From: Myxococcota bacterium
GTDB lineage: Bacteria > Myxococcota_A > UBA9160 > UBA4427
Direction of reading: 5' to 3'
Assembly (NCBI GenBank): GCA_029243605.1
Contig: JAQWRT010000033.1
Coordinates: forward strand, 1 to 64,000
DNA: 64,000 nt
The notes beneath the pieces were generated by a model that ran no database searches, was not told the origin of the DNA, and worked only from the letters and a program-made list of their open reading frames with translations. A program made the position numbers and the translations under genes. Of this stretch, positions 35,806-47,283 are shown piece after piece; positions within the stretch are counted from its first letter, which is position 1, and each line of letters begins with the position of its first letter.

Positions 35806-37026
35806 CTAGAGAAAATCGGTGAAATCGACTCCGCCGTTGACCCGGAGAGACTCCACCACGTGGCGAACCACCAGCAAAGCCGATCCATCAACCGTCATGT
35901 TGTCGACGATCGGGACGTTATTCCGATCGGCCTGCTCGAGGAGATAGCGCTGGATCTTCAGGATCTCCTCAAGCCTCTCAACATAGCGAGCCGCGTCCCG
36001 GGCTCGTTGCCGGCGTGCCCGAGCTTCGAACTGACTCTCGAAGGCCTGCTCATCCAGACGGCCCACCATCAGGAAGAAAACGTGGGCGCGGTCCGCGTAT
36101 TCCTCTAAATCGATCAAGCCGGGCACCAGCGCGACCCCATCGAGCACGATGCTCGTATTTTCTTCGATAGCCCGGTCCAGCATCGCGCGAACTCCCACCG
36201 ACACCGTCGATGCCTGGGAGAGGAATCCGTCGATAACCGGGTCTTCTTCGCGTCCCAGAGCCGGTAGCTCCCGGTAGGCATCGAAGGAGGAGACGTGGAT
36301 CGCAGGCATCAGGTCCGGCGAAAGCATGATGCGCATGATATGTCGAATAGAATCGGTCGAGAGCATGCGGCTGACACCGAGTCGCTGGGCAACCGCCAAG
36401 GCAAGAGAAGTCTTCCCCACCCCCGCAGTCCCGCCCAGGAGAATGATGACCGGCTTCTCGGGTTCCTCGAATTTCCGCCAGACGAGATAGCGCTGGGCGA
36501 CGCGGTTGCCGAAGCGTTCGAGAAGAGCGTCGTAGGCAAACCGACGAAGCTCGACCTGAGTCACCTCCTCGGTCCCTCGCTGAATCAAGTTGGCCTCGAT
36601 CACGCGGGCCACCTCAAAAGCATCATCGGGGGCCAGGGATGCGGCCAACAAGCTCTGGGATAGAGTTCCCTTCGAAAAATGAGTACTGCCGCGGTTCCCC
36701 ACCACCTGGAGGGTCGCCGGCAACTGAATCGGCTGCTCGCTCTCGGCCCCCTCGCCGACGATCTCGTGCACAATTTTGGCCAACTCGGCACGTTCCACCC
36801 GGCCGCGTCCCTGGATCATGCCCGACACCTGGCCAGCGGTGGAATAGGCTTCGTCGAAACCGATGCCCCGAGCCATCAGGGAATGAACCATGATGCCGCG
36901 CATATAGGGGCGCTCGGCACCGGATTCCTCGACCACCAGAACACGCGTTCCCGCCCGAGCGGAGTCTTGGCTTCCCGGATCGTTTTTGTTCTTTTTAGCC
37001 GACAAAAGACAACACCTCTGAGACAC
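35806..37026 (-). CDS. 2-phosphoglycerate kinase-like protein (ATP-cone-like region + P-loop kinase)
   Basis: N-terminal YMRGIMVHSLMARGIGFDEAYSTAGQVSGMI; IILLGGTAGVGKTSLALAVAQRLGVSRMLSTDSIRHIMRIMLSPDLMPAIHVSSFDAYREL. Confidence 0.75.
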   Translation of the reverse strand: MSQRCCLLSAKKNKNDPGSQDSARAGTRVLVVEESGAERPYMRGIMVHSLMARGIGFDEAYSTAGQVSGMIQGRGRVERAELAKIVHEIVGEGAESEQPIQLPATLQVVGNRGSTHFSKGTLSQSLLAASLAPDDAFEVARVIEANLIQRGTEEVTQVELRRFAYDALLERFGNRVAQRYLVWRKFEEPEKPVIILLGGTAGVGKTSLALAVAQRLGVSRMLSTDSIRHIMRIMLSPDLMPAIHVSSFDAYRELPALGREEDPVIDGFLSQASTVSVGVRAMLDRAIEENTSIVLDGVALVPGLIDLEEYADRAHVFFLMVGRLDEQAFESQFEARARRQRARDAARYVERLEEILKIQRYLLEQADRNNVPIVDNMTVDGSALLVVRHVVESLRVNGGVDFTDFL

Positions 37027-37385
37027 AATGTACGACCCGCGCGGCGTCAGCGCCGGAGGCCGGGGCGGGCGATCTAAAACGGACGCGACGGCGTGCGGGA
37101 AGATCCCGCAGAGTCAATTCAACACGCCAGCTGTCCGGGCGGGCCAAAAATGGCCGCAAATCCTTCAGAAAGCCTGACAAAGCACTAATTGGCACAAATT
37201 AGCTCTTTTTTGGGTTGACTTCTAGGGCAGTAAACCGTTACTTCGTTGCCAGAGATCGAAGATCTCCTTGCCGCCAGACCCCCAGCGAGCGAGCCGGAGA
37301 ACGGAGTGTCGCGATTTTTCTCCCGCACCAGTCCTGGGCATGGGCGGTTTCCCTTGCCCGGATCTCGGGTTCAGGGGCCAGGCGA

Positions 37386-37946
37386 ATGAGTTCGCCCAGC
37401 GCCCATCCACCCCTGGCCGCGCCTTCCGAGGTGCGTCCCCCGACTCGGCGACCCACTCCGCGGAGCGAGGCCAGCCGATCCGATAGCTCGGAACTCTTCC
37501 CTACCCGGGACGTTCTCGAGATCGTCGGAGTCTCCCGCAGGCAACTCCAGTACTGGTCCCAAACCAATCTGGTGCGTCCATCGCTCCGAACCGTGGGCGG
37601 ACATCATCGATACAGTTTCGAGGATCTCGTCACCCTCAAGGCGGTTCGTCGTCTCATCGACGCCGGCATCTCGGTCCAACGCATTCGCAATGGAATCCGG
37701 ATGCTGCGTGAAGCCTTGAGAAGCGGGTCCCGGCCCCTAGGCGAACTCACCCTGATCGCGACCGGCGATCTTGTTCTCGTCCTGCCCGAACAGAGCGACT
37801 TCGAAGTCCTCCATGGGCATGAATGGATTTTTCCGATCAGCGAATTTCGTCGAGAAATCGATGCCCGAGCTGAAGACCATCGCCGCAAATCGAAGGACAA
37901 ACACACAAGAGGAGGGGCCCCGAATTTTGAACCGAACCCCGTCTAG
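37386..37946 (+). CDS. MerR-family HTH protein
   Basis: LEIVGVSRRQLQYWSQTNLVRPSLRTVGGHHRYSFEDLVTLKAVRRLIDAGISVQRIRNGIRML. Confidence 0.85.
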   Translation: MSSPSAHPPLAAPSEVRPPTRRPTPRSEASRSDSSELFPTRDVLEIVGVSRRQLQYWSQTNLVRPSLRTVGGHHRYSFEDLVTLKAVRRLIDAGISVQRIRNGIRMLREALRSGSRPLGELTLIATGDLVLVLPEQSDFEVLHGHEWIFPISEFRREIDARAEDHRRKSKDKHTRGGAPNFEPNPV

Positions 37947-38050: not shown

Positions 38051-39127
38051 ATGCGGACCATTAGCATCGTCAATCAGAAGGGTGGCTGCGGGAAGACCAC
38101 GACTACGGTCAGCCTGGCGGGAGCCCTCGCCGGGGACGGTTTTGCCGTTCTCGTCATCGATATGGATCCCCAGGCCCATGCCAGCATGGCCCTGGGAGTC
38201 GATCCAGAAGAGATCGAGGAGAATCTCTACGAGGTCCTGGTCGAACCCGATGCCAGCGGTCGCCTGGATGGAGTGGTCGTGAACGCATCCCGGGGAATCG
38301 ACCTCGCACCCGGGGGCATCGTTCTCTCCGCCCTGGAACAACGACTCGCCGCCGAAAACCAGGAAGCGCGAACCGAGCGTCTGGCCGCCGCCTTGGGCTC
38401 CCTGAGGAGCCAGTACGATTTTGCCCTGATCGATTGCCCCCCGGCGGTGGGATTGCTCACCTTCAACGCCCTGAGGGCTTCGCAAGAGGTGATCGTCCCG
38501 CTGGAAACCAGTTCCTTCGCGATCGACGGGGTTCAGAAACTCCTGGAAACCCTCGCCCTTCTGATGGAGCGAGTGGGTCACACTCTCTCCGTTCGGGTGT
38601 TGCCAAGCCTCTATGACGGGCGGACGCGCTATGCGCGCGAGACCCTCGGCGAGATACGCGAACTCTTCAAGGAACTCTGCTTCGACTCGGTCGTGCGGCT
38701 CAATGTGAAGCTGCGGGAAGCCGCTCGGGAGGGCATGCCGATTTCGCTCTGGGCCCCCGATTCCAACGGGGCCGCCGACTACGCTTCGGTGGCCATGGAA
38801 GTCGCCATGGGACCACCCGCCGAGATCGAGGCCGGGAGCGATACCGAGACTGAAGCGGCCCGGGAGGTGGTAATCGAATACCGCGATTCCCAAGCCAACG
38901 ACGTCCGCATTGCGGGTGATTTCAACGGCTGGGTCCCCGACCGGAACGTTCTCTCGCGGGTGGAGGCCAGCGGGCGCACCCGAGTCTGGGTCAAGGTCCT
39001 CAAACTGCCCCCGGGCGTCTACCAATACCGCTATTTCGTCGATGGCCAATGGAGAGTGGACCCAGAAAACGAGGAAAGTTCTCCCGGACCCATGGGCCAG
39101 ACCAACTCCGTTCTCTACGTCCGCTGA
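38051..39127 (+). CDS. ParA-family ATPase fused to C-terminal CBM48/AMPK-type glycogen-binding domain
   Basis: Deviant Walker A NQKGGCGKTTTTVSLAGAL, Walker B YDFALIDCPPAVGLLTFNAL. C-terminus VVIEYRDSQANDVRIAGDFNGWVPDRNVLSRVEASGRTRVWVKVLKLPPGVYQYRYFVDGQWRVDPENEESSPGPMGQTNSVLYV. Confidence 0.9.
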   Translation: MRTISIVNQKGGCGKTTTTVSLAGALAGDGFAVLVIDMDPQAHASMALGVDPEEIEENLYEVLVEPDASGRLDGVVVNASRGIDLAPGGIVLSALEQRLAAENQEARTERLAAALGSLRSQYDFALIDCPPAVGLLTFNALRASQEVIVPLETSSFAIDGVQKLLETLALLMERVGHTLSVRVLPSLYDGRTRYARETLGEIRELFKELCFDSVVRLNVKLREAAREGMPISLWAPDSNGAADYASVAMEVAMGPPAEIEAGSDTETEAAREVVIEYRDSQANDVRIAGDFNGWVPDRNVLSRVEASGRTRVWVKVLKLPPGVYQYRYFVDGQWRVDPENEESSPGPMGQTNSVLYVR

Positions 39128-39136
39128 CTCGAAAAT

Positions 39137-39925
39137 ATGGCGCGAAACCTCTCAGACGTGCTCCACTATTTTGGTCCCGAGTTGGCCGAAGCCGAGGCCC
39201 AGGTGCGGCCGGCCGAGGACGCGCCCCGGGCCGAGGCTCCGGCCTGCCGGATCATCGGTGTCCCCATTGGCAGCCGGGACGTCGTCCGGGCGGCGTTCGC
39301 CTGGAATATCGCGGTGGAGGTGGTCCGGCTCGGAGGTCGAGCAACGATCCTCTGCCCGGACGAGACGAGCCCTTCACCGCTCTGGCCCCAGGCCAGCACC
39401 GGCCCACTGGGGGTGGCACTGCGCCCGAGCCTGGCCCAAAACCTCGACGAACTCCTCGCCAGTGCCCAGGATTGGGCCGCCAACACCGCCCACAAAAGCG
39501 AGAGCGACCTTCTCCTCGTCCGAATTCCCCCCGAGTGGATCAGCGCAGCCGTTGCCCCCTCCCCACTCCTCGATTGGGTCCTCCTCTTCACATCCTCCGA
39601 AGAAGCCAACCTCCAGGAAGCCCTCGCGCTCACCCGCAATGTCGTCGACCGTCACCCCGGGGCAAGGGTCGGCATCACGATTCACGGAGCCCAAAGCCGA
39701 GAGGAAGCCGAGACCGCCTTCGGCAACCTGGCCCGGGCCTCGCGCGAGAAAACAGGGCGTGATGTCCGCAGCTACGGCCTGCTGGTCGACGATCTCGATG
39801 TCTACCGAGCGATCGTCGCCCAACGCCCCATCGGCCTAGCCCATCCACAGTCTCCAGCCGCGCGTGCCCTCCGCGATGTCGCCGAACTTCTACTCGGGGA
39901 CATCGAGGAAGACGCCCGTGGTTGA
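39137..39925 (+). CDS. MinD/ParA-like protein with no recognisable P-loop
   Basis: IIGVPIGSRDVVRAAFAWNIAVEVVRLGGRATILCPDE aligns by eye with the MinD N-terminus minus GKGGVGKS/T. C-terminal DLDVYRAIVAQRPIGLAHPQSPAARALRDVAELLLG is MinD/FlhG-like. Confidence 0.6.
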   Translation: MARNLSDVLHYFGPELAEAEAQVRPAEDAPRAEAPACRIIGVPIGSRDVVRAAFAWNIAVEVVRLGGRATILCPDETSPSPLWPQASTGPLGVALRPSLAQNLDELLASAQDWAANTAHKSESDLLLVRIPPEWISAAVAPSPLLDWVLLFTSSEEANLQEALALTRNVVDRHPGARVGITIHGAQSREEAETAFGNLARASREKTGRDVRSYGLLVDDLDVYRAIVAQRPIGLAHPQSPAARALRDVAELLLGDIEEDARG

Positions 39926-40529
39926 ATTCGCAAGAATCCCGCCGGGTTCGGCCAAGGCCATCCGGGCCGAGGCTCGCGAGCAATTGGGACAGCTGGGCCA
40001 AGGGCTCCGGGTCATCGCCGAGGACGTGATGGGCCTCACCTCCTCCATCGATCTGCTCGCCGTAGACCCAGACGGGGGCCTGGTGGCCATACTCATCGCC
40101 AGTGAGCCCGACCAGGAGCCCGCCCTGCTCGGCCGGGGGATCGCGCACAGGGCATGGGCCGACCAGCGGGCCAAGGATTGGTGCACCCTCGCCCCGGAAC
40201 TCGCCATCGCATGGGATCGGCCCGCGCGCTGCATCCTCCTGGCCCCAGATTTTGGAGAGGAGACCCGGCTGGCGGCCCGCACCCTGGGCTCGGACACCGT
40301 CCTCCTGGTCCGCTATCTCGCCCTGCGCGCCGGAAAGGAGACCGGGCTGCTCCTCGAACCCCTGGCACACTTGCCCGAGCCCGGGAGGGCGGCCCCATCG
40401 GAGCCGACGATCAAGCCCCTCCCCCGGTCCCCGACCCAGGAAATGGACCCACTGCCCGAGTTTCGCAGCAAGCTCGCCGATCGCGACCTACGCACCCAGA
40501 GGGCCCCTACGCCTCTCCCTGCGGGGTAA
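39918..40529 (+). CDS. Hypothetical protein with restriction-endonuclease-like (NucS-like) region lacking an obvious ExK
   Basis: GLTSSIDLLAVDPDGGLVAILIASEPDQEPALLGRGIAHRAWADQRAKDW. GTG start overlaps the upstream stop. Confidence 0.5.
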   Translation: MVEFARIPPGSAKAIRAEAREQLGQLGQGLRVIAEDVMGLTSSIDLLAVDPDGGLVAILIASEPDQEPALLGRGIAHRAWADQRAKDWCTLAPELAIAWDRPARCILLAPDFGEETRLAARTLGSDTVLLVRYLALRAGKETGLLLEPLAHLPEPGRAAPSEPTIKPLPRSPTQEMDPLPEFRSKLADRDLRTQRAPTPLPAG

Positions 40530-40699: not shown

Positions 40700-41356
40700 A
40701 TGCGAAATCCGGAAAATGAAGGAATAGGAACCGGGAGAGCGACTGGGACGGCAAAAACTCTCGCCGGTCACCCGCACCGCGGCGCTCCCGCAACGCATTC
40801 GAGGGCCGACTCGCCCGACGAAATCAGTGATCGCGAGATCATCGACCGCGTGAGCAAGGGCGATCGCGAAGCGTTTGAGCTTCTCTACGAGCGCTATTTC
40901 ACCCGTATCTACCGCTTTATCGCGCGTCGCATGGGCGTCCGCGCAGACGTCGAGGAGACCACCCAAGAGGTCTTCATCGCGGTCTTTTCGAGTCTCGATT
41001 CTTTTCGCGGCGAGGCTCCGTTTTCCGCCTGGATCTACGGCGTAACCCGACGAGTCATCGCGAGTCGCTTCAAGCGCAAGCGCCACCCCATGGTGCCGCT
41101 GCTCGAAGAAGACTCCGAAAGCAACACCGCACACGCCAGCACGCGACCAACCCCCCTCGAAGAGTACGAATGCCAGGAGCGCATCGAAGAACTGACGGCG
41201 GCGGCTGAAAAATTGAGCGATGAACAAAAGGAACTCTTCCGCCTGCATCACATCGACGACCACTCCATCAGCGAGATCGCGATCCGCATGAGCAAGAGCG
41301 AGGACGCGGTCAAGTCGAACCTCTACCGCGCACGAAAGGTTCTGCTCCCGCGCTGA
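40700..41356 (+). CDS. Sigma-70-family (ECF-like) RNA polymerase sigma factor
   Basis: DREAFELLYERYFTRIYRFIARRMGVRADVEETTQEVFIAVFSSLDSFRGEAPFSAWIYGVTRRV...IRMSKSEDAVKSNLYRARK. Confidence 0.92.
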   Translation: MRNPENEGIGTGRATGTAKTLAGHPHRGAPATHSRADSPDEISDREIIDRVSKGDREAFELLYERYFTRIYRFIARRMGVRADVEETTQEVFIAVFSSLDSFRGEAPFSAWIYGVTRRVIASRFKRKRHPMVPLLEEDSESNTAHASTRPTPLEEYECQERIEELTAAAEKLSDEQKELFRLHHIDDHSISEIAIRMSKSEDAVKSNLYRARKVLLPR

Positions 41357-43199: not shown

Positions 43200-44606
43200 T
43201 CAGGCGCCGATTTTCTCGACCTGGTCGAGGATGCGATCCCGCTCCTCGACCATCTTGGCCTCGCTCTCTGCTTCCAGGTTCAACCGGAGCACCGGCTCGG
43301 TATTCGAGGGGCGAAGGTTGAACCACCAATCGGAATAGCCGACGAGAAGGCCATCGAGCTTGGATACCGTCGGTGCGCCGGCATGCTCCGCTTCCATGGC
43401 TCCCAGAACCGCCGCGGTATCCCTCACTCGGCGGTTGATTTCCCCGCTGGCATGGTAGCGCCGCAGGGGGGCGACAATCTCGGAGAGCGGGCGTCCCTCC
43501 ACCGCCAGAACATCGAGCAGCGCCACGAAGGTCGCAATGGCATCGTCGGCGATCAGGTCGTTGTCGAACCGAAAATACGTGTGTCCCGAGAGTTCGCCGG
43601 CGAAAATTGCCCCGGACTCCCGCATATGCGCTTTGACGAACGAATGGCCGACCCGGCACATCTCGGCCCGACCGCCGGCTTGCTCGATTTCCTCGGCGAC
43701 CGCCCGGCTCGAACGAAGATCGTATAGGACCAAGCCACCGGGGTTGCGAGCGAGTTGATAGCGAGCGAGGAGCCCGGTCATCAGGTCCGACGCCACCGGA
43801 CGCCCCTGTTCATCGACAAAGACCGCGCGGTCCGCATCCCCGTCGAAAGCAACCCCAAAGTCCGCGCCCACCCGACGAACCGCCTCGGAGACGTCCGAAA
43901 GATTCTCGACCTTCAGGGGGTCCGCTTCATGGTTGGGAAAGGTTCCGTCCGGTTCAAAATAGAGACGCTCAACCTCGATCTTCAAGGCCTCGAGCACGGG
44001 CTCGAGGCCCACGCTCGCCATACCGTTACCGCAGTCGATGGCGGCCCGAACCGCCGGGCGACCGGTGCCCACCGAAAGAGCCTGCTCGGCATAGCCCCCG
44101 CGGACGTCCCGCTCCACAACGCTTCCTCGAGGCGAGACCGGGGGGGCGTCAGCGCACGCCTGGACCAGTGCTTCGATCTCTTTGAGGCCACTCGCCTCAC
44201 CGATGGGGATCGCCTTCTCACGGCAAATCTTGAAGCCGTTGTACTCACCCGGGTTGTGGGAGGCGGTCACCATCACCCCGCCACCGGCGCCGGTTTCGGC
44301 CACGGCGAAATACATCATGGGGGTGGCAGCGAGCCCCAGATCGATCACCGAAACGCCCTCGTCCGTGATGCCTCGTACTAGCGCCTGGCACAATTCGGGT
44401 GAGTGCGAGCGGGCATCTCGGCCCACCACGAGGCTCTCCGCTCCCACAAAACGAGCCGTCGCCCGCCCGATTCCATAGGCGATTTCGGCGTTCAACTCGT
44501 CGGGGACAACCCCCCGGATATCATAGGCTTTGAAGATTGCCACTCCGGACTCCTCCCTGGGCTCCTCCCTCGGAGCAGCCGGCTTCAAAAATGGGAACCG
44601 AACCAT
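43200..44606 (-). CDS. Phosphomannomutase/phosphoglucomutase (start may be GTG at 44543)
   Basis: FKAYDIRGVVPDELN...VVGRDARSHSPEL...GVMVTASHNPGEYNGFK...VAFDGDADRAVFVDEQG...GELSGHTYF. Confidence 0.93.
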   Translation of the reverse strand: MVRFPFLKPAAPREEPREESGVAIFKAYDIRGVVPDELNAEIAYGIGRATARFVGAESLVVGRDARSHSPELCQALVRGITDEGVSVIDLGLAATPMMYFAVAETGAGGGVMVTASHNPGEYNGFKICREKAIPIGEASGLKEIEALVQACADAPPVSPRGSVVERDVRGGYAEQALSVGTGRPAVRAAIDCGNGMASVGLEPVLEALKIEVERLYFEPDGTFPNHEADPLKVENLSDVSEAVRRVGADFGVAFDGDADRAVFVDEQGRPVASDLMTGLLARYQLARNPGGLVLYDLRSSRAVAEEIEQAGGRAEMCRVGHSFVKAHMRESGAIFAGELSGHTYFRFDNDLIADDAIATFVALLDVLAVEGRPLSEIVAPLRRYHASGEINRRVRDTAAVLGAMEAEHAGAPTVSKLDGLLVGYSDWWFNLRPSNTEPVLRLNLEAESEAKMVEERDRILDQVEKIGA

Positions 44607-46474: not shown

Positions 46475-46629
46475 GACCGGCGAAGACCCCGGTCTCAGGC
46501 CCGCAGCCGAATCGCCCTGAAACTCGCGTGTCGAACCCGTAGAGGCGCCTGGCGCCGCGCTCCCTGAGCCTCCCGTGTGCTAGGGTGCCGCTCGCCCCGC
46601 AGACTCCTCCCGGGCCATTCCCCTCAACC

Positions 46630-47283
46630 ATGAGCGAGCCGACGATGGCGATCCTGATCAAGCGCTATGCGAACCGGAAGCTCTACAACACCCAGAGCAG
46701 CCGCTACATCACGCTGAAGGGAATCGCCGAACTTCTCGATGCCGGCGAGGAAGTCCGGGTCATCGACAAGCAGACCGGGGAAGACATCACCTCGGTGGCG
46801 CTCTCCCAGATCCTAGTCGATAGCAAGCGCTCGAATACCCAACCCCCGGACACCCTCCTGACCCAGATCCTGGGGCGCGGGGGCGACGCCCTCTACGACG
46901 CCCTGCGCAAGGGCGTCGACGATGCCAGCGAGGGCATCGGCGATCTGCAAGAACGCATGCGGCGCATGGTAGGCACCAGCGATGAGGCCCAGGCTTCGCC
47001 GGACGAGGACGATGAGTTCGAAGCGGACGAGGCCGCAGAACCCCAGGCCTCGACGAAAAAACAGGGCTTCTTCCAGGCGCCCCCGGAATTGGATGATCTC
47101 GTCCAGAACGCGGTGGAGCGCGTCTTCCGGCTCCTCGACCTTCCTCGCCGATCGGATGTCGAATCCCTCAACCAGAACCTCGAACGGGTGGCCGGCGCCG
47201 TCGAAGCCCTCGAAGAGGCCTTCGCCGAACGGACCGGCGGCGAAAGCGATGACGAGACCGAGGACTCCGAAGAATCTCCCTAA
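46630..47283 (+). CDS. phaR: Polyhydroxyalkanoate synthesis regulator-like protein
   Basis: ILIKRYANRKLYNTQSSRYITLKGIAELLDAGEEVRVIDKQTGEDITSVALSQILVDSKRS. Confidence 0.9.
   Translation: MSEPTMAILIKRYANRKLYNTQSSRYITLKGIAELLDAGEEVRVIDKQTGEDITSVALSQILVDSKRSNTQPPDTLLTQILGRGGDALYDALRKGVDDASEGIGDLQERMRRMVGTSDEAQASPDEDDEFEADEAAEPQASTKKQGFFQAPPELDDLVQNAVERVFRLLDLPRRSDVESLNQNLERVAGAVEALEEAFAERTGGESDDETEDSEESP

Follow-up and report, generated by a model that had tools for sequence, protein, structure and literature searches.

The cargo of known ParA/MinD systems is DNA, protein machines or microcompartments; to our knowledge, none is tied to carbohydrate, and we know of no positioning ATPase of the McdA, PpfA, ParC or PomZ type that carries a carbohydrate-binding domain. 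McdA/McdB, PpfA/TlpT, ParC and PomZ/PomX share one layout, in which a ParA/MinD ATPase is served by a dedicated partner with a charged N-terminal peptide (PMC10241942; PMC7993993). The activators have a modular build, in which diverse interaction domains carry a short, charged stretch at the N-terminus (PMC7993993; PMC10241942). Here we describe a locus with the same layout, in which the ATPase carries a domain of a sugar-binding type and the partner body differs; a search of open-licence papers for ParA with glycogen or CBM48 returned no paper on this fusion.

The locus lies in a 64,000-nucleotide stretch of DNA from a Myxococcota bacterium (the window). One unbroken ORF, with exactly the bounds listed in Table 1, encodes a complete ParA ATPase joined to an AMPK-beta-type glycogen-binding domain. 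Both halves had been recognized in the first-pass annotation, the first as a complete ParA with deviant Walker A and Walker B motifs and the second as a glycogen-recognition domain, and Pfam bears out both: AAA_31 covers residues 1-180 (E = 4.6e-47), CbiA matches residues 4-231, and AMPK1_CBM (PF16561) matches the C-terminal domain with E = 4.7e-13 and 49.6 bits, above the curated cut-off of 26.8 (E = 1.9e-14 when the C-terminal piece is searched alone). Compared with the PDB by sequence, the tail finds the CBMs of AMPK beta subunits first (4y0g, E = 1.9e-8) and the plant SEX4 glucan phosphatase next; in animals and plants, this kind of domain holds on to glycogen or starch. The AlphaFold2 model (mean pLDDT 89.5) runs from a ParA fold through a disordered linker (257-267) into an all-beta domain (271-357). 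Its best Foldseek matches in the PDB are Soj and ParA-ATP; because these top hits cover the ParA part only, the CBM assignment is sequence-based. The deviant Walker A with its signature Lys, Walker B and ParA fold place the protein among the ParA/MinD ATPases, in the ParA (nucleoid) branch. With the AMPK beta glycogen-binding domain and the CBM48 of SEX4 it has in common the domain family and four sugar-contact positions, but here the domain is attached to a ParA ATPase rather than to a kinase scaffold or a phosphatase.

Table 1. Features of the ParA-CBM locus and its surroundings, in window coordinates
Feature	Position	Strand	Basis
ATP-cone + P-loop kinase-like protein, divergent	35806..37026	-	similar place in 56 related loci
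MerR-family regulator, directly upstream of ParA-CBM	37215..37946	+	Pfam MerR_1 E = 7e-14; in 48 loci
ParA-CBM fusion protein, 358 aa	38051..39127	+	ORF and translation; Pfam AAA_31 and AMPK1_CBM; AlphaFold2 model
ParA/Soj-type ATPase domain, residues 1-250	38051..38800	+	Pfam; residue alignment; Foldseek
AMPK-beta/CBM48-type glycogen-recognition domain, residues 273-357	38867..39121	+	Pfam; pocket W294, R327, W334, N352; PDB sequence matches; dN/dS
Partner protein, 262 aa: N-terminal peptide MARNLSDVLHYFGPE, then MinD/FlhG-like fold without Walker A	39137..39925	+	synteny; AlphaFold2; Foldseek
Partner N-terminal peptide, proposed ParA-activating	39137..39181	+	R3, L5, V8, F12 at least 90% conserved; LGRGL variants elsewhere
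Third gene, at most 221 aa, true start probably ~39918	39864..40529	+	synteny; HMM
ECF sigma factor	40700..41356	+	Pfam Sigma70_r2/r4; 50 loci
Phosphoglucomutase/phosphomannomutase (PMM/PGM)	43200..44606	-	near ParA-CBM in 45 loci
PhaR-like PHB/PHA accumulation regulator	46585..47283	+	Pfam PHB_acc_N E = 1.2e-24

Residues that matter to either half are kept with little variation. All 79 homologs compared have the deviant Walker A KGGCGKTT (K10, K15), D39 and the Walker B D128; Cys13 of KGGCGKT is likewise invariant and marks the family. At the equivalents of the DNA-binding R189 and R218 of Soj, R191 is found in 78/79 and K or R at 220 in 79/79 (K220 in the window protein), and ParA-CBM is predicted to bind the nucleoid through these conserved basic residues. 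The Trp/Lys/Asn pocket, singled out for checking when the domain was first noticed, is intact: W294 is present in 79/79, R327 is R or K in 78/79, W334 is present in 79/79, and N352 is N in 73/79 and D in 3. These four supply the W, K/R, W, N set of sugar contacts of AMPK1_CBM/CBM48 domains and are equivalent to W100, K126, W133 and N150 of AMPK. Judged by these residues, the CBM would bind a ligand in the window's organism.

One scan of GTDB species genomes yielded 80 kept ParA-CBM loci, nearly all spanning the whole query at 93% to 38% identity and a few cut by a contig end or holding an in-frame stop; by record titles, they fall in Myxococcota, Omnitrophota, Desulfobacterota, Planctomycetota and Gammaproteobacteria. 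Since independent genomes from five phyla encode the fusion at full length, the caveat raised when it was first noted, an assembly or frameshift artefact, is ruled out. A profile (A1) built from 36 homologs gives fusions more than 415 bits, against no more than 291 for the two plain ParAs scored with it. It matches 53/60 sampled Myxococcota genomes of the window's class (in G154 over the ParA part only) and 0/224 of those sampled outside it; matches are rarer in Gammaproteobacteria (9/229 genomes) and in Desulfobacterota (16/247, a CBM-less sister group included) than in the window's class. The sister ParAs (L110, L112, L113, L116; L136-L143) have the same KGGCGKT domain and a tail without CBM; L112 keeps a peptide-bearing partner, and L113/L142 adjoins a gene for a Wzz-like polysaccharide co-polymerase. 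A plasmid-borne system was rejected: among 1,442 plasmid records with a ParA match, only 3 cover at least 80% of the query (0 of the ten listed). A role in anti-phage defence was set aside as well, PADLOC giving no convincing match, and searches for structured RNA at the ParA-CBM locus and for tRNA in the window found none.

ParA/Soj and ParB/Spo0J resemble the pair described here in several respects: the ATPase domain shares 36% identity with the ParA of the same genome, catalytic and DNA-binding residues are in common, and the partner of ParA-CBM has a basic N-terminal peptide, with LGRGL in some phyla. ParA-CBM differs in its C-terminal CBM and its invariant Walker A Cys, and it lies off the chromosomal par locus with a partner that is not ParB. 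The chromosomal ParA (L002) is a separate gene on contig C71, followed by a ParB gene whose product begins with MSDKRRALGRGLGALI; ParA-CBM is thus not the ParA of the chromosomal ParABS system.

The N-terminus of the partner is the most telling feature of the module. The partner gene adjoins ParA-CBM in 56 loci and is also found in other phyla; an HMM made solely from myxococcal partners detects neighbour genes in Desulfobacterota, Gammaproteobacteria and Omnitrophota, down to E = 4e-18. In Myxococcota the peptide reads RDLxDVLHYFLPE, and in other phyla it takes forms such as RGLEEISHLFLSS and ERLAEISHHFLSE; the literal LGRGL of ParB appears in the partners of L072, L076 and the Desulfobacterota loci L103/L130 and L104/L131. 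The peptide is kept in every phylum that bears the fusion, and a basic residue stands just before its core in 26/27 scored sequences. The partner thereby shows the hallmark of the activator class, a conserved basic N-terminal peptide encoded beside the ATPase (PMC7993993). Behind the peptide, the AlphaFold2 model of the body (pLDDT 87) is MinD/FlhG-like, with FlhG as the best PDB match in Foldseek (4rz2, E = 3e-13) and FlhG, MinD and FleN as the best fold matches overall; its Walker A is lost, and it is therefore a pseudo-ATPase. Pfam and NCBIfam gave nothing decisive on either the partner or the third gene. The partner differs from FlhG/FleN and MinD, whose fold it shares, in lacking Walker A, in its N-terminal peptide and in the lack of an obvious flagellar context.

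Partner bodies vary. Most are pseudo-MinD, but that of L079 is PAS-like, that of L127 gives a weak HTH match, and those of L053 and L074 contain a domain like the third gene. At L066, L067 and L075, the peptide-bearing gene lies upstream of ParA-CBM and is of another type; in L066 and L067 its product, read by eye, has an outer domain and what is probably a membrane segment. At L080 and L124, no partner gene was seen. Directly downstream of ParA-CBM in L075, a 137-aa ORF encodes an N-terminal half very rich in Lys and Arg and, after it, ENIIGLITHYFPR, a sequence similar to the partner peptide. By analogy, varied bodies with a shared peptide match the published modular-activator rule (PMC7993993; PMC10241942). 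The layout of ATPase plus dedicated partner is that of McdA/McdB, PpfA/TlpT, ParC and PomZ/PomX; the partner bodies are unlike theirs.

In the window's class, the MerR gene is followed by ParA-CBM, the gene for the 262-aa partner, a third gene encoding ~200 aa and the gene for an ECF sigma factor, in that order. The third gene is kept in ~50 Myxococcota loci, and an HMM made solely from its myxococcal sequences finds matches in Omnitrophota, Desulfobacterota and Gammaproteobacteria down to E = 5e-8; by HMM, homologs of both the partner and the third gene occur in four phyla. It has no convincing Pfam match; by eye only, its product resembles PD-(D/E)XK folds. In L082, from Gammaproteobacteria, a homolog of the MerR regulator (E = 1e-35) holds the corresponding position, and MerR-like ORFs lie upstream of ParA-CBM in L118, L120, L122 and L135. 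Since FleN is a FleQ regulator, and FlhG, MinD and FleN are the partner's nearest folds, the module might be a regulator rather than a positioner, in which ParA-CBM with a pseudo-FleN/FlhG-like partner, MerR and the ECF factor senses a sugar and controls transcription. MerR upstream of the fusion in three phyla, the adjacent ECF factor within the window's class and the weak HTH match in one partner fit this reading. The ECF factor, however, is absent from the distant ParA-CBM loci, its linkage being confined to the window's own class, and the DNA-binding residues and activator peptide better suit a ParA positioning cycle; we regard control of transcription as improbable. Beyond MerR, the divergent kinase-like protein looks by eye to be of the 2-phosphoglycerate-kinase type.

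A glycogen operon elsewhere in the genome, which the first-pass annotation proposed to look for, was not found: searches of the window genome (G000; 92.9% complete) gave no GT5 synthase, no GH13 and no GT35 phosphorylase, the single GH57 hit (19.4 bits) fell below the cut-off, and its sole AMPK1_CBM is the fusion itself. The same four families are missing from seven fusion-bearing Myxococcota relatives (G001-G005, G011, G013), save for a marginal GH57 hit in G001. Branching enzymes are members of GH13 or GH57, and with GT5, GH13, GT35 and GH57 absent, glycogen made by known routes is therefore not expected in the window's lineage; incompleteness of the genomes is unlikely to cause so many independent absences. 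Among the 52 CBM-bearing genomes of the window's class, 43 are without GT5 and 25 without both GT5 and GH13; in the window's own family, 16 of the 20 fusion genomes lack both. Across the class, the fusion and GT5 do not co-occur preferentially (GT5 in 9/53 genomes with the fusion vs 1/7 without; Fisher p = 1). The ligand in the window's lineage would then not be glycogen from any known route. The carbon store of the window organism, which encodes a PhaR-like regulator, may be polyhydroxyalkanoate rather than glycogen.

The domain has nonetheless been preserved. The window protein and L003 both come from glycogen-less genomes; between them, dN of the CBM is 0.029 and dS 0.45 (dN/dS ~0.06), which shows clear purifying selection in those genomes. 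Selection in genomes without alpha-glucan enzymes would also be expected had the CBM lost sugar binding and turned into a module for protein-protein contact or intramolecular regulation, docking the pseudo-MinD partner for example, and close sister KGGCGKT ParAs do carry another, CBM-less tail, at least one of them (L112) with the same partner type. Docking would not need the two Trp and the Lys/Arg position, which are invariant or nearly so across phyla; it is the main alternative, possible but with a probability well under even.

Outside Myxococcota, the picture differs from that in the window's class. Five ParA-CBM loci have alpha-glucan genes within ~7 kb: L076 adjoins GlgP (51% to that of E. 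coli), L127 adjoins GlgB (50%) and a GH13-like protein, L128 adjoins GH57 and a glycogen synthase/phosphorylase-like protein, and L075 and L078 adjoin GH57, the GH57 names at the last three loci being sequence motifs read by eye. Five such neighbourhoods were observed vs ~1.2 expected in 34 loci, a crude post hoc Poisson estimate (p 0.004-0.008) that ignores kinship; they weakly exceed chance. In Desulfobacterota, GT5 is present in 11/11 fusion bearers, but also in 197/247 genomes overall, and because GT5 is so common the link falls short of significance (p = 0.13). Small AMPK1_CBM proteins (120-157 aa) that stand alone and start with a Lys/Ala-rich, histone-like tail are encoded by three of the Desulfobacterota bearers (L144:7881, L145:4103, L147:2363), a further case of a CBM joined to what may be a DNA-binding part. 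These small proteins, the five neighbourhoods and the conserved pocket all suit a system for positioning or segregating glycogen granules, whose CBM binds glycogen and whose ParA spreads the granules along the nucleoid. Such a system presupposes a bearer that makes glycogen, and neither the window genome and its seven relatives nor almost half of the fusion genomes of the class have the enzymes; we hold it to be quite improbable. Since alpha-glucan genes do lie beside the five Desulfobacterota/Omnitrophota loci, some members of the family may be tied to glycogen, the window protein not among them.

BcsQ, a ParA-like ATPase in polysaccharide biology, suggests another connection to sugar, namely a role in the export of extracellular polysaccharide. 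Genes for exopolysaccharide chain-length control and kinase-like proteins were recognized by eye near L075, the same kind of genes lie beside the CBM-less sister ParA L113/L142, and the PMM/PGM gene is syntenic in 45 loci. The HMM match to BcsQ is weak, 56.6 bits against the NCBIfam equivalog cut-off of 157.85, which leaves ParA-CBM outside that family. No polysaccharide synthase was recognized near most loci, the window included, nor any cellulose gene at the ParA-CBM locus, and the partner is unlike BcsR or BcsE. A BcsQ-like role is very unlikely.

We favour, with a confidence a little better than even, a reading in which ParA-CBM serves as the ATPase in a ParA-type system for spatial organisation apart from chromosome segregation, activated by the partner and recognizing a glucan-type ligand through its CBM. 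ATP-bound dimers would bind the nucleoid via the conserved basic residues; the basic peptide of the partner, judging by its sequence, would activate the ATPase by triggering ATP hydrolysis, as ParB, MinE and PomX do; and the pseudo-MinD body, together with the product of the third gene, may connect the ATPase to cargo. The CBM would serve to recognize a carbohydrate or other ligand, and through it a glucan-type ligand may tether or gate the ATPase. Of the first-pass proposal that the protein positions cargo in the manner of ParA, the positioning role gains in likelihood from the conserved partner with its ParB-like peptide; glycogen as the cargo is unsupported in the window organism. The module was probably linked to alpha-glucan in some lineages; the tie to glycogen is perhaps ancestral, the module having been kept in the window's lineage for another ligand. 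A stronger form, in which a carbohydrate polymer is itself the cargo or gating signal, held by the ATPase, released by the ParB-like partner and exchanged for another sugar in the glycogen-free Myxococcota lineage, is doubtful; it would let bacteria actively position or partition a polysaccharide store.

With a conserved ParA that has both a carbohydrate-binding domain and a ParB-like activator to itself, the ParA/MinD systems would gain a class of cargo, and the inheritance of bacterial glycogen would become testable. In the window's lineage, an intact glucan pocket that persists without glycogen metabolism poses the question of what its ligand is there.
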